Positions 15,568 to 19,216 of a stretch of 64,000 nucleotides of DNA are shown here, one piece after another. The notes under the pieces are model-generated. The model made no database searches and was not told the DNA's origin. It worked only from the letters and a program-made list of their open reading frames with translations. The position numbers were made by a program, and so were the translations under genes. Source of the stretch: Methanoculleus oceani (GTDB taxonomy: Archaea > Halobacteriota > Methanomicrobia > Methanomicrobiales > Methanoculleaceae); contig NZ_QFDM01000002.1 in NCBI RefSeq assembly GCF_023702065.1, forward strand, positions 620,001 to 684,000. The letters run 5' to 3'. Position 1 is the stretch's first letter, and each line of letters starts with the position of its first letter.

Positions 15568-15852
15568 CTACTCGAACCCTTCCGTCTCCTCGAACGTCTT
15601 CACCTCGCAGTCCCCCAACCGGCCGGTCCCCGGGTCCATATGGACCATCACGAAGAGTTCGTGCTCGCTGTTCTCCCAGAGGGCAAGGGCGGGTTTATCC
15701 TCCTTCGCCCGGAACCCGAGAGCCTCGAGACCCTCCCGGATCCCGTCGTAGGTAGTGTTTGCGACGATCATCTCCCGGACCCGGTTCTTCATGGCCTCCT
15801 GCTCCTCCCGGTCAATCTCTATCTGTTCACGCATGCGAAGACCATACCGCAT
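15568..15852 (-). CDS. Uncharacterised small protein, paralog of the next gene
   Basis: A 94-residue soluble protein of unknown function. A helical N-terminus (REQIEIDREEQEAMKNRV) leads into YDGIREGLEALGF, ALALWENSEHELFVMVHMD and a C-terminal DCEVKTFEE. The same arrangement occurs in the neighbour at 15925-16188, so the two arose by duplication. No metal or catalytic motif is seen. A start at the internal ATG 15834 is also possible. Confidence 0.6.
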   Translation of the reverse strand: MRYGLRMREQIEIDREEQEAMKNRVREMIVANTTYDGIREGLEALGFRAKEDKPALALWENSEHELFVMVHMDPGTGRLGDCEVKTFEETEGFE

Positions 15853-15924: not shown

Positions 15925-16188
15925 TTACCGGGCGTTGTAGCCGGCAAACTCCCCCTCACGGCCTTTCAGGTCATCGTAGGCGGCCACCCTGTACCCTGCA
16001 TACCCGCCCCCGAGGTTCATCTGGAGCAGGACGAAGATCCTGAGGCCGGGATGCACCCAGATCGCGACATCGGGATCATCCTGCTCCGGTATGAAGTTTA
16101 ACGAGCGGAGGGCCTCCCTGATGTCGGCATAGTCGGGCGTCGACTGGATCATCTCCTCGATCTCCACCATCACAGCCCGTTGCTGCAT
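15925..16188 (-). CDS. Uncharacterised small protein, paralog of the 15568-15852 gene
   Basis: An 87-residue protein aligning with its neighbour: EEMIQSTPDYADIREALRSLNF matches the neighbour's REMI...YDGIREGLEALGF, and VAIWVHPGLRIFVLLQMN matches LALWENSEHELFVMVHMD. ATG 16188 is chosen because GGAGAT lies 8 bases upstream. ATG 16209 would add seven residues, and the frame is open further still. Function unknown. Confidence 0.55.
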   Translation of the reverse strand: MQQRAVMVEIEEMIQSTPDYADIREALRSLNFIPEQDDPDVAIWVHPGLRIFVLLQMNLGGGYAGYRVAAYDDLKGREGEFAGYNAR

Positions 16189-16420
16189 GGTCTCGATATC
16201 TCCGAGCATGGCCCCCACGATAGGTCCCCTCGTATAAAACATGATCCGGGGCCGGATCCTGAGACGAACCGCGCATTCTGCGATGCCGTCCCGACGTAAC
16301 AGTCCGGGGATTGCAGCCCGTATGCTCATGCCGGCGAGGGGGGCCGCCCGGTGAAGTGCACAACCTTCATCAGAGACCTCGTGAAAACATACAGCAACGC
16401 AAGGCACGGCAGGAGAGACT

Positions 16421-17218
16421 ATGACCGACGACAACTCCAGGACACTGATCCTCGATATAGACACCGACGATCTGCAGGAACTCTCCGAGTACCTGGACGT
16501 GCTGAGCAGCAGCACACGCTTGAAGATCCTGAAGGTCATCGAACGAAGGCCAAAAGACGTCCGCCAGATCTCCGCCGAGATCGAGACGAGTTACGAGAAC
16601 ACAAAAAAGCACCTCGACAAACTGCTGAGCATAGGAGTCGTCCGCAAAGAGGCCGGTCTCTCGCGCCCGACCGCAAAGGGGATCCATCCTGTCTGGAAAT
16701 ACTCGCTCGTGCCCGGCGGTCTCGAAGCGATCACGAGAAGCCTCGGACTCTTCTCGAACCTGAAACTGACGCTCACGGATGCCGTGCTCGCAAAGAAACT
16801 TGCCGGTGTCCGGGAGACATTCTCGGGAGAGTTCGCCGGGCAACCCCCGGTCGTCATCCTCCTCGGGGGAGCGGAGGACGGCAGGGTCTTCCCCCTCGGG
16901 CACGACAGCGTCGCCATAGGGCGGGCGGACCCGGGCACGCCCGGCCGGCCCGAGCGGGAGATCGTCCTCGGCGAGGAGTACGCGGCGGTCACCCGTGTCT
17001 CGAGACCGCACGCCCGGCTCACCCGCCGCCGGGACGGTGCCTGGCTCATCGAGGACTGCGGCAGCACGGGCGGCACCTTCGTGAACGGCATGCCGCTGGA
17101 CCGGGGCATGCGGCGGGAGCTCCACGACGGTGACCTCATCGAACTCGCGAAGGGCGCGCCGGGGGCAACGCTTGTCTTCGTTGTTCCCGGGGGGGTGCCG
17201 GTGCCGGATGCCGCCTGA
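16421..17218 (+). CDS. Winged-helix (ArsR-like) protein with C-terminal FHA domain
   Basis: A 265-residue fusion. Residues 25-100 form an ArsR-type winged helix (LSSSTRLKILKVIERRPKDVRQIS, then ENTKKHLDKLLSIGVV). Residues 145-262 form an FHA domain with IGRADPG, the VSRPHAR motif and the closing GSTGGTFVNGMPL. FHA domains bind phosphothreonine, so DNA binding may respond to the Ser/Thr kinase encoded directly downstream and overlapping by 11 bases. No close relative with known function is recalled. Confidence 0.85.
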   Translation: MTDDNSRTLILDIDTDDLQELSEYLDVLSSSTRLKILKVIERRPKDVRQISAEIETSYENTKKHLDKLLSIGVVRKEAGLSRPTAKGIHPVWKYSLVPGGLEAITRSLGLFSNLKLTLTDAVLAKKLAGVRETFSGEFAGQPPVVILLGGAEDGRVFPLGHDSVAIGRADPGTPGRPEREIVLGEEYAAVTRVSRPHARLTRRRDGAWLIEDCGSTGGTFVNGMPLDRGMRRELHDGDLIELAKGAPGATLVFVVPGGVPVPDAA

Positions 17219-18539
17219 ACGGGCCGGACGGGCGGCCGTCCTGCTCTTGATCTCTGCCCTGCTCCTCGCCGCCGTCTGTCCCGCCGTTTCGGGCGCGGGG
17301 GGACCGCCGGAGCACTCCAGCGCCTCCCCCCAGGGCATCGAGTCTGCCGTCAAGACGCCAACCGAGGATAAGAGCACCGCTCCCGGCCAGAACAGGGGCA
17401 GGGATACACCGGAAGAGACGCCCACCCCCCAGCCCTCGCCCGAAGAGACCGTCACGCCTGCCGATACCCCGGGAGAGGAGCGGACAGAAGCAACGGCGGA
17501 GGCGACGGCTACCGGGACGGCCGGTGAAACGCCCACGGAGAACAGCCGGACGGTCACGGACCCGTTCCCCTGGACCGGGGTTGTCCTGGCCCTCGTCCTG
17601 CTCGCCGGAGCCTTCGTGCTCGGTGCCCGGTACCTGAAGAGACCGGGGGGAGCGGATACCACCGGAACATCCCCGGGCACGACCATCCTGCCCGGCGCAT
17701 ACCGGACCGTGCTCTCCCATCCGCCCGGGTTCCCGCCGGAACTTGCAGAGCGGTACGGCCAGGTCGCCTTCGTCGGGAGAGGCGGGCTCGGGCAGGTCTT
17801 CTCGGCGGTCAGGCGCGATGACCGTCGAACCGTAGCGGTGAAGATCCCGGTCGCCTACGACGAAGCGACCGGGAAAACCTTCATGAAAGAGATGCGGTTC
17901 TGGGAAGACCTCACCCACGAAAACATCGTGGCGGTCCACTCGGTCAACATCCTCCCGGTGCCGTATGTCGAGATGGAGTATCTGCCCCGGACCCTCGAGC
18001 AACTGGAAAAACCCCTTCCGGTGGAGACCGCCGCCCGCATCGCTGCAGGCATCGCCGCCGGGCTTGCCTACGCCCACGGGAGGGGCGTGATCCACCGCGA
18101 TATCAAGCCGAGAAACATCCTTCTTGCCGACGACCTGACGCCGAAGATCACCGACTGGGGCATGAGCACGACGCTGGCGGCGAGCCGGGATACCACCATT
18201 GCCGGGTTCACCCTCGCGTATGCAGCCCCGGAGCAGATCGCCCCGGAGCGGTTCGGCAGGACCGATGCACGGACCGACATCTACCAGCTCGGCGCCGTCT
18301 TCTACGAACTGGTGACGGGAAAGACCCCCAATGCCGGCGAGAGCCTCGCCGGGTTTGCCGAAGCAACTCTCGACGAGCAGCCGGTCCCCCCCGGAGAGAT
18401 CAATCCGGACGCCGCAGGATTCGACCCGATCATCCTCCGGTGCCTCGCAAAAGACCCCGCCGATCGCTACCGGTCCGCCGGAGAGGTGCTCGATGCGATC
18501 GAGACCGCGATGGGCGACGCAGGGGATGAGCGAGCGTGA
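17208..18539 (+). CDS. Membrane-anchored eukaryotic-type Ser/Thr protein kinase
   Basis: A 443-residue kinase of unusual layout. An N-terminal signal-like hydrophobic segment (residues 8-30) leads to a Pro/Thr/Glu-rich extracellular linker (35-118) and a membrane helix at 121-141. The kinase domain occupies about 178-440. Motifs: glycine loop GRGGLGQVF, VAVK (K212), helix C Glu in MKEMR, HRDIKPRNILL (D298), DWG in place of DFG (D316), and AAPEQ. ATG 17208 overlaps the FHA gene. It likely phosphorylates Thr/Ser on cytoplasmic partners, the FHA protein and the channel being obvious candidates. Confidence 0.9.
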   Translation: MPPERAGRAAVLLLISALLLAAVCPAVSGAGGPPEHSSASPQGIESAVKTPTEDKSTAPGQNRGRDTPEETPTPQPSPEETVTPADTPGEERTEATAEATATGTAGETPTENSRTVTDPFPWTGVVLALVLLAGAFVLGARYLKRPGGADTTGTSPGTTILPGAYRTVLSHPPGFPPELAERYGQVAFVGRGGLGQVFSAVRRDDRRTVAVKIPVAYDEATGKTFMKEMRFWEDLTHENIVAVHSVNILPVPYVEMEYLPRTLEQLEKPLPVETAARIAAGIAAGLAYAHGRGVIHRDIKPRNILLADDLTPKITDWGMSTTLAASRDTTIAGFTLAYAAPEQIAPERFGRTDARTDIYQLGAVFYELVTGKTPNAGESLAGFAEATLDEQPVPPGEINPDAAGFDPIILRCLAKDPADRYRSAGEVLDAIETAMGDAGDERA

Positions 18540-19216
18540 AGAGCCTTCTCGCCCGGTACCTCGCCCGCGCCAGGGCCATGCGGTTCCACTACCTGCTCGT
18601 ATCGCTCATCCTCCTGCTCGCCGTCTACCCCTACGTAGGTGCAGGGCCGACCGGCCAGATCGTCCTGAAGGTGCTCTCGTCCCTCGTCCTGATCACCGGT
18701 GTCTACGCCGTGAGTAACCGGCGTCGTCAGGTCGTCATCGCCGTCCTCCTTGCGATTCCCGCCTTCGGCTTCGGCTGGCTCTACGTCATCACCGGAAATC
18801 CCGCACTCGGAGACGCCGAGAGCATATTCACGCTCCTCTTCTACGCCTTCACCGCGCTCATCGGCCTCCTGCAGGTGCTCGGAGAACGCCGGATCACCAC
18901 CGACACCATCTCCGGAGCGGTATCCGTCTACCTCCTCATGGGCCTGACCTGGGCGACCGCCTACGGCCTCGTCGAGAGCCTCAGCCCCGGATCGTTCTCC
19001 AGCAGCCATCCGGGCGACGTTTTCACCTTCCCCACGTTCATCTACTATAGTTTCGTCACCCTCGCGACGCTCGGCTACGGCGACATCACGCCGGTCACCG
19101 ACCAGGCCCGGTCGCTCGCCGTGCTCGAGACCGTGAGCGGAACACTCTACATCGCCGTCCTGATCGCCCGCCTGGTGGCGGCGGCCGGGTGGATGCCGAA
19201 GACCGGCGCCGAGTGA
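18536..19216 (+). CDS. Voltage-gated-like potassium channel
   Basis: A 226-residue membrane protein with about six hydrophobic segments and a pore loop FVTLATLGYGDITPVTDQ. TLGYGD is the K+ selectivity filter. The last helix follows at about 196-215, with no C-terminal ligand domain. The first four segments occupy the place of a sensor domain but lack an obvious arginine ladder. GTG 18536 overlaps the kinase stop codon by four bases, so translation is coupled. It may pass K+ under control of the upstream kinase; that link is inferred from the operon. Confidence 0.85.
   Translation: MKSLLARYLARARAMRFHYLLVSLILLLAVYPYVGAGPTGQIVLKVLSSLVLITGVYAVSNRRRQVVIAVLLAIPAFGFGWLYVITGNPALGDAESIFTLLFYAFTALIGLLQVLGERRITTDTISGAVSVYLLMGLTWATAYGLVESLSPGSFSSSHPGDVFTFPTFIYYSFVTLATLGYGDITPVTDQARSLAVLETVSGTLYIAVLIARLVAAAGWMPKTGAE

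Follow-up and report, generated by a model that had tools for sequence, protein, structure and literature searches.

How a condition outside an archaeal cell comes to change gene expression inside it when the protein at the membrane is a Ser/Thr kinase is a largely open question, and a three-gene locus of Methanoculleus oceani gives a candidate for such a route. The locus lies in the window, by which we mean the whole stretch of 64,000 nucleotides that was analysed, and consists of three genes on the + strand. The original prediction had described them as overlapping at both junctions, by 11 and 4 bases, and the coordinates of the open reading frames confirm this; the products it had named were also recovered, with Pfam giving HTH_5/ArsR plus FHA, Pkinase and Ion_trans_2 in gene order. 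The genes are the following:

16421..17218, + strand: wHTH-FHA regulator gene, an open reading frame of 265 aa with an ATG start
17208..18539, + strand: membrane Hanks-type Ser/Thr kinase gene, an open reading frame of 443 aa from the ATG at 17208, taken here as the start (the longest listed frame begins with GTG at 17130)
18536..19216, + strand: K+ channel gene, an open reading frame of 226 aa with a GTG start

The 11-base overlap of regulator and kinase is the same in all 24 scorable loci of the genus, and thus is not one genome's accident.

The first gene joins a DNA-binding domain to a reader of phosphorylated residues (Pfam, HTH_5/ArsR 7e-7 and FHA 3e-14), and the protein is up to 94% identical to its closest named relatives, which belong to Methanoculleus. 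Three parts of the gene carry the argument:

16442..16444, + strand: codon of Thr8, the invariant threonine of a predicted-disordered N-terminal tail (111/111 distinct proteins)
16508..16648, + strand: ArsR-type winged helix-turn-helix (HTH_5, Pfam), residues 30-76
16916..17146, + strand: FHA domain (Pfam, with fold matches in the PDB), residues 166-242

Across 23 diverse members, the run Y58 E59 N60 T61 K62 K63 H64 of the winged helix is invariant, as are R168, S194, H197 and N222 of the FHA domain. Most of the residues that hold a phosphopeptide are thus in place, including the Arg of the GR motif and the Ser and His of SxxH (R168, S194 and H197); the Asn of STNG, usual in FHA phosphopeptide binding, is Gly217 in every member. 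With the three former residues kept and the latter replaced, binding of phosphothreonine by this domain is probable, as far as sequence can tell. Among the nearest solved FHA folds in the PDB are the GarA-PknB complex, OdhI, and the DgcB FHA domain with a phosphorylated N-terminal peptide. The AlphaFold model of the regulator derives from a shallow alignment (pTM 0.48), and how it places the domains relative to one another cannot be relied on.

The second gene encodes the kinase (Pfam, Pkinase 1e-38; nearest solved kinase in the PDB, PknB, 1e-36), in which a hydrophobic stretch (residues 9-27), a segment rich in T, P and E (31-118) and a hydrophobic helix (122-140) precede the kinase domain:

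17298..17561, + strand: predicted outer T/P/E-rich segment, residues 31-118, between two hydrophobic helices
17763..18470, + strand: kinase catalytic domain, residues 186-421, with K212, E228, HRD at 296-298, DWG at 316-318 and APE at 340-342

All the Hanks-type hallmarks are kept (the Gly-loop, Lys, Glu, HRD and APE), the common DFG reading DWG here, and a Ser or Thr is present in the activation loop in each of the 94 loops read. The outer part varies with lineage, being T/P-rich in Methanoculleus, of the NosD/beta-helix type in Methanoregula and PEGA in Methanolinea and its relatives, and extra hydrophobic helices precede the kinase domain in still other lineages. The NosD/beta-helix or PEGA outer parts join the same catalytic domain (L052:6843-8984, L046, L064, L076 and L087). 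A swapped outer part on a kept catalytic part is the pattern expected of a sensor kinase, a role that its sequence would assign to this protein.

Regulator and kinase form a unit across the Methanomicrobiales. Of the 199 genomes searched in the order, 136 have the regulator, 139 the kinase and 133 both; the regulator alone is present in 3 (G090, G104 and G184), the kinase alone in 6 (G006, G103, G119, G143, G160 and G195) and neither in 57; some of the single-gene genomes are incomplete, and the Fisher test (p 6e-39) ignores kinship. Named loci numbered 80, of which 8 end too soon; in 70 of the remaining 72 the kinase is the next gene downstream, in the same orientation. The two exceptional loci are L102, where the kinase gene is convergent, and L103, where it lies beside a second FHA copy. 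Ten genomes carry between two and four copies (G001, G008, G009, G013, G015, G021, G025, G031, G033 and G045), and all 22 of their regulator genes adjoin their own same-strand kinase, pairing being read from gene positions, which argues for duplication as pairs. Outside the order, no regulator appeared among the matches listed at E 1e-10 in 394 genomes of the phylum. The co-conservation of all three genes, on which the original prediction had staked its reading, thus holds for two of them, which co-occur order-wide and adjoin, while the channel is restricted in its distribution. As separate observations, regulator and kinase are convergent and not in tandem in some genomes (L102:6825-9107, - strand, and the second copies at G097:C63 and G161:C1), and the divergent wHTH-FHA copy at L103:9924-10727 has a shortened tail, is followed immediately by a kinase gene and lies 3 kb away from an FHA-PP2C pair of the normal kind.

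One family within the order (f2) adds a third component: 24 of its 28 genomes have a PP2C phosphatase, whose gene often lies just ahead of that of the regulator, and each of the 11 regions read (L151 and L177-L186) has the PP2C, wHTH-FHA and kinase genes in that order on the same strand. L103, a record titled Methanospirillaceae, has a PP2C gene after its regulator gene. Pfam confirms PP2C in three tested f2 regions, in L103 and in the window genome's copy, and no PP2C lies beside the other three FHA-kinase pairs of G013. A single FHA domain is present in the window genome, along with a single PP2C match (G000 C2:514185-515111), about 105 kb from the window start, and two Pkinase matches over the cut-off. 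The second of these is a frame of 1841 aa (L144:2481-7001, contig C3 of the window genome) which, by our reading of its sequence, begins with a Hanks-like kinase and continues with AAA-, GAF- and PAS-like parts; it has HGG in place of HRD, so that the operon kinase is the only canonical one in this genome. With one canonical copy of each component and a single candidate phosphosite, the signalling route could be tested with few purified proteins.

That candidate site is Thr8, which is kept in 111 of 111 distinct wHTH-FHA proteins in a tail predicted by AlphaFold to be disordered (pLDDT about 34) and mostly variable, the next-best position being an Asp in 104 of 111. Its codons are ACA (46), ACG (34), ACC (20) and ACT (11); all four Thr codons being in use, it is the protein that is conserved and not the DNA. 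The surroundings read xT[ILV][IVA][LVI], the three hydrophobic residues being followed by acidic ones. An artefact of motif selection was considered and rejected, the anchor motif lying 12 residues off and being without Thr8; a Thr stands at the same spacing in two of the three proteins that the anchor missed. The invariance of Thr8, together with its use of all four codons, is the reason for favouring, by analogy and tentatively, an FHA/phosphothreonine switch of the GarA/OdhI kind. A structural role for Thr8 could be an alternative.

The proteins of the comparison share with the archaeal pair an FHA protein with a disordered N-terminal tail bearing a conserved Thr, a PknB-like kinase and a phospho-Ser/Thr phosphatase. 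The N-terminal motif of GarA and OdhI is ETTS, which is absent around Thr8 of the regulator. Their targets are enzymes of 2-oxoglutarate metabolism, and they lack a DNA-binding domain, whereas the regulator described here carries a winged helix. In OdhI, phosphorylation of N-terminal Thr14 shifts the conformation, and the phosphatase Ppp undoes the shift (PMC9769921). Closer in gene order is EmbR/PknH of Mycobacterium tuberculosis, in which one operon encodes a Ser/Thr kinase together with a winged-helix FHA regulator (PMC9239209). In both systems the FHA domain is C-terminal on a winged-helix protein, the gene of a transmembrane Ser/Thr kinase lies directly downstream, and the kinase domain is nearest to the mycobacterial PknB group. 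EmbR, however, is of the SARP family, with an OmpR/PhoB-type winged helix and a BTAD, while the archaeal regulator has an ArsR-type HTH and no Pfam match to Trans_reg_C or BTAD; since the HTH class differs and the BTAD is missing, it is not a member of the EmbR family, though it would work like EmbR/PknH. It differs also in its invariant tail Thr, and its kinase in a different, interchangeable outer part. Phosphorylation of EmbR was observed in vitro and in E. coli and went undetected in the living cell under normal growth (PMC9239209), which calls for caution and counts against the switch proposed here.

Among archaea, the FHA proteins studied as of 2019 were those of the Sulfolobales, among them one that has a kinase as interaction partner and may act in transcription control, and FHA domains were reported absent from most archaeal genomes; ArnA and ST0829 thus resemble the present regulator as archaeal FHA proteins linked to Ser/Thr kinases and to transcription control (PMC6509490). 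ArnA, however, works with a vWA partner, for which Pfam gave no match among the neighbouring genes scanned beside the operon, and it comes from a different archaeal lineage. To our knowledge, neither ArnA nor ST0829 is a winged-helix fusion. No published description of the regulator-kinase pair was found in the open-access literature, and the pair looks like an undescribed route from an outside signal to a change in gene expression. The likeness to two-component systems is that a membrane sensor kinase and a DNA-binding partner are encoded side by side, with the sensor part swapped between lineages; the chemistry here would be of the Ser/Thr type with a phospho-reader, as opposed to His-Asp phosphotransfer. 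Throughout an order of methanogens the genes of a kinase and a DNA-binding phospho-reader stand together, joined in one family by that of a phosphatase, and it is conceivable, though we put this forward tentatively, that they are a Ser/Thr counterpart of two-component systems in archaea, built separately from EmbR/PknH, with swappable-sensor kinases, for each kinase a wHTH-FHA regulator of its own that is switched when its FHA domain binds its own phosphorylated tail Thr, and reversal by PP2C.

The explanation that we consider best, and reasonably probable as a whole, is a kinase-to-FHA-regulator switch with PP2C reversal; the link from kinase to regulator, taken by itself, is likely. The phospho-controlled loop of the original prediction is retained in this part, which order-wide co-occurrence, adjacency and the PP2C neighbour in one family strongly support. 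The membrane kinase would sense a condition at the cell surface through its interchangeable outer segment, autophosphorylate, and phosphorylate the wHTH-FHA regulator encoded by the adjoining gene, with Thr8 as the most likely acceptor. The FHA domain of the regulator would then capture the phosphorylated tail, either in cis, as in GarA and OdhI, or between subunits, and this contact would alter the pairing of the winged helices or their binding to DNA until the PP2C phosphatase reversed the phosphorylation. The regulated promoters would probably include that of the operon itself, and in Methanoculleus the K+ channel would have been added as a co-expressed output.

The main rival to the tail switch is a docking role, in which the FHA domain would bind the kinase itself, at its activation loop or juxtamembrane segment once these are autophosphorylated; the regulator would not be switched by its own tail, and the active kinase would hold it at the membrane or recruit it for phosphorylation elsewhere, a scheme already proposed for EmbR/PknH. 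The Ser or Thr of all the activation loops read and the place of the GarA-PknB complex among the top fold matches speak for it, as does the need of EmbR for its FHA domain in both interaction with PknH and phosphorylation by it (PMC9239209); docking alone, however, leaves unexplained one invariant Thr in a mostly variable tail, and we regard it as rather unlikely. Far less probable still is co-transcription without any signalling link, in which the products share a promoter and act separately. Gene overlap is frequent in compact archaeal genomes, so that the overlaps of the operon fit such a reading, against which stand the order-wide adjacency, the duplication in pairs, the joint absence and the PP2C neighbour.

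The original prediction had placed the third gene inside the loop too, with ion flux linked to transcription. The channel (Pfam, Ion_trans_2 7e-14) has six hydrophobic helices, and its predicted structure is poor in the pore region; its filter is the following:

19067-19084, + strand: TLGYGD selectivity filter, which fits TxGYGD and is invariant in 14 sequences

Among 35 genomes of the genus, a channel orthologue is present in 20, always with the pair, while 6 have the regulator without the channel and 9 have neither (exact test 7e-5, with kinship ignored and some genomes incomplete). The gene sits between those of the kinase and a SIMPL protein, and where it is absent the SIMPL gene comes directly after the kinase. 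The sister genus has a channel at 63% identity (L047 and L155), and none was found beside the pair in the named loci read elsewhere in the Methanomicrobiales. G058 and G120 lack the whole trio, and the flanks there stand in order, about 200 bases apart (L157:8465-8651 and L158:3662-3875). To judge from this distribution, the channel is a later, optional addition to an older pair, and it probably belongs to the output of the same operon, because it never occurs without the pair and because two genomes lack all three genes. A coupling of flux to transcription, in which the kinase phosphorylates the channel too or the channel gives the signal, would draw on the same co-occurrence and joint loss with kept flanks, and on the overlap of the channel gene with the kinase gene. 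Against it, beyond the genus and its sister genus no channel gene adjoins the pair, several members of the genus keep the pair and lack the channel, and the cytosolic ends of the channel are of some 10-17 residues with no regulatory domain, so that we hold such a coupling to be quite improbable. The ion-flux part of the original prediction is accordingly weak, the channel being confined to the genus and its sister genus and absent from several genomes that keep the pair.

Upstream of the operon, an alignment of 17 upstream regions from the genus and its sister genus brings out one conserved element:

16358..16391, + strand: candidate promoter/operator block, GCACAACCTTCATCAGAG...GTGAAAACATACAG, conserved 5' of the first gene

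Naming a regulon by means of this block was given up, since its 18-base core occurs once in the genome, even with up to 3 mismatches allowed, and the sequences upstream of the operon differ in other genera. Divergent from the operon are two tandem small paralogues on the - strand, at 15568-15852 and 15925-16245 (about 94 and 106 aa), which gave no Pfam or NCBIfam match and are kept beside the operon in the genus and its sister genus.
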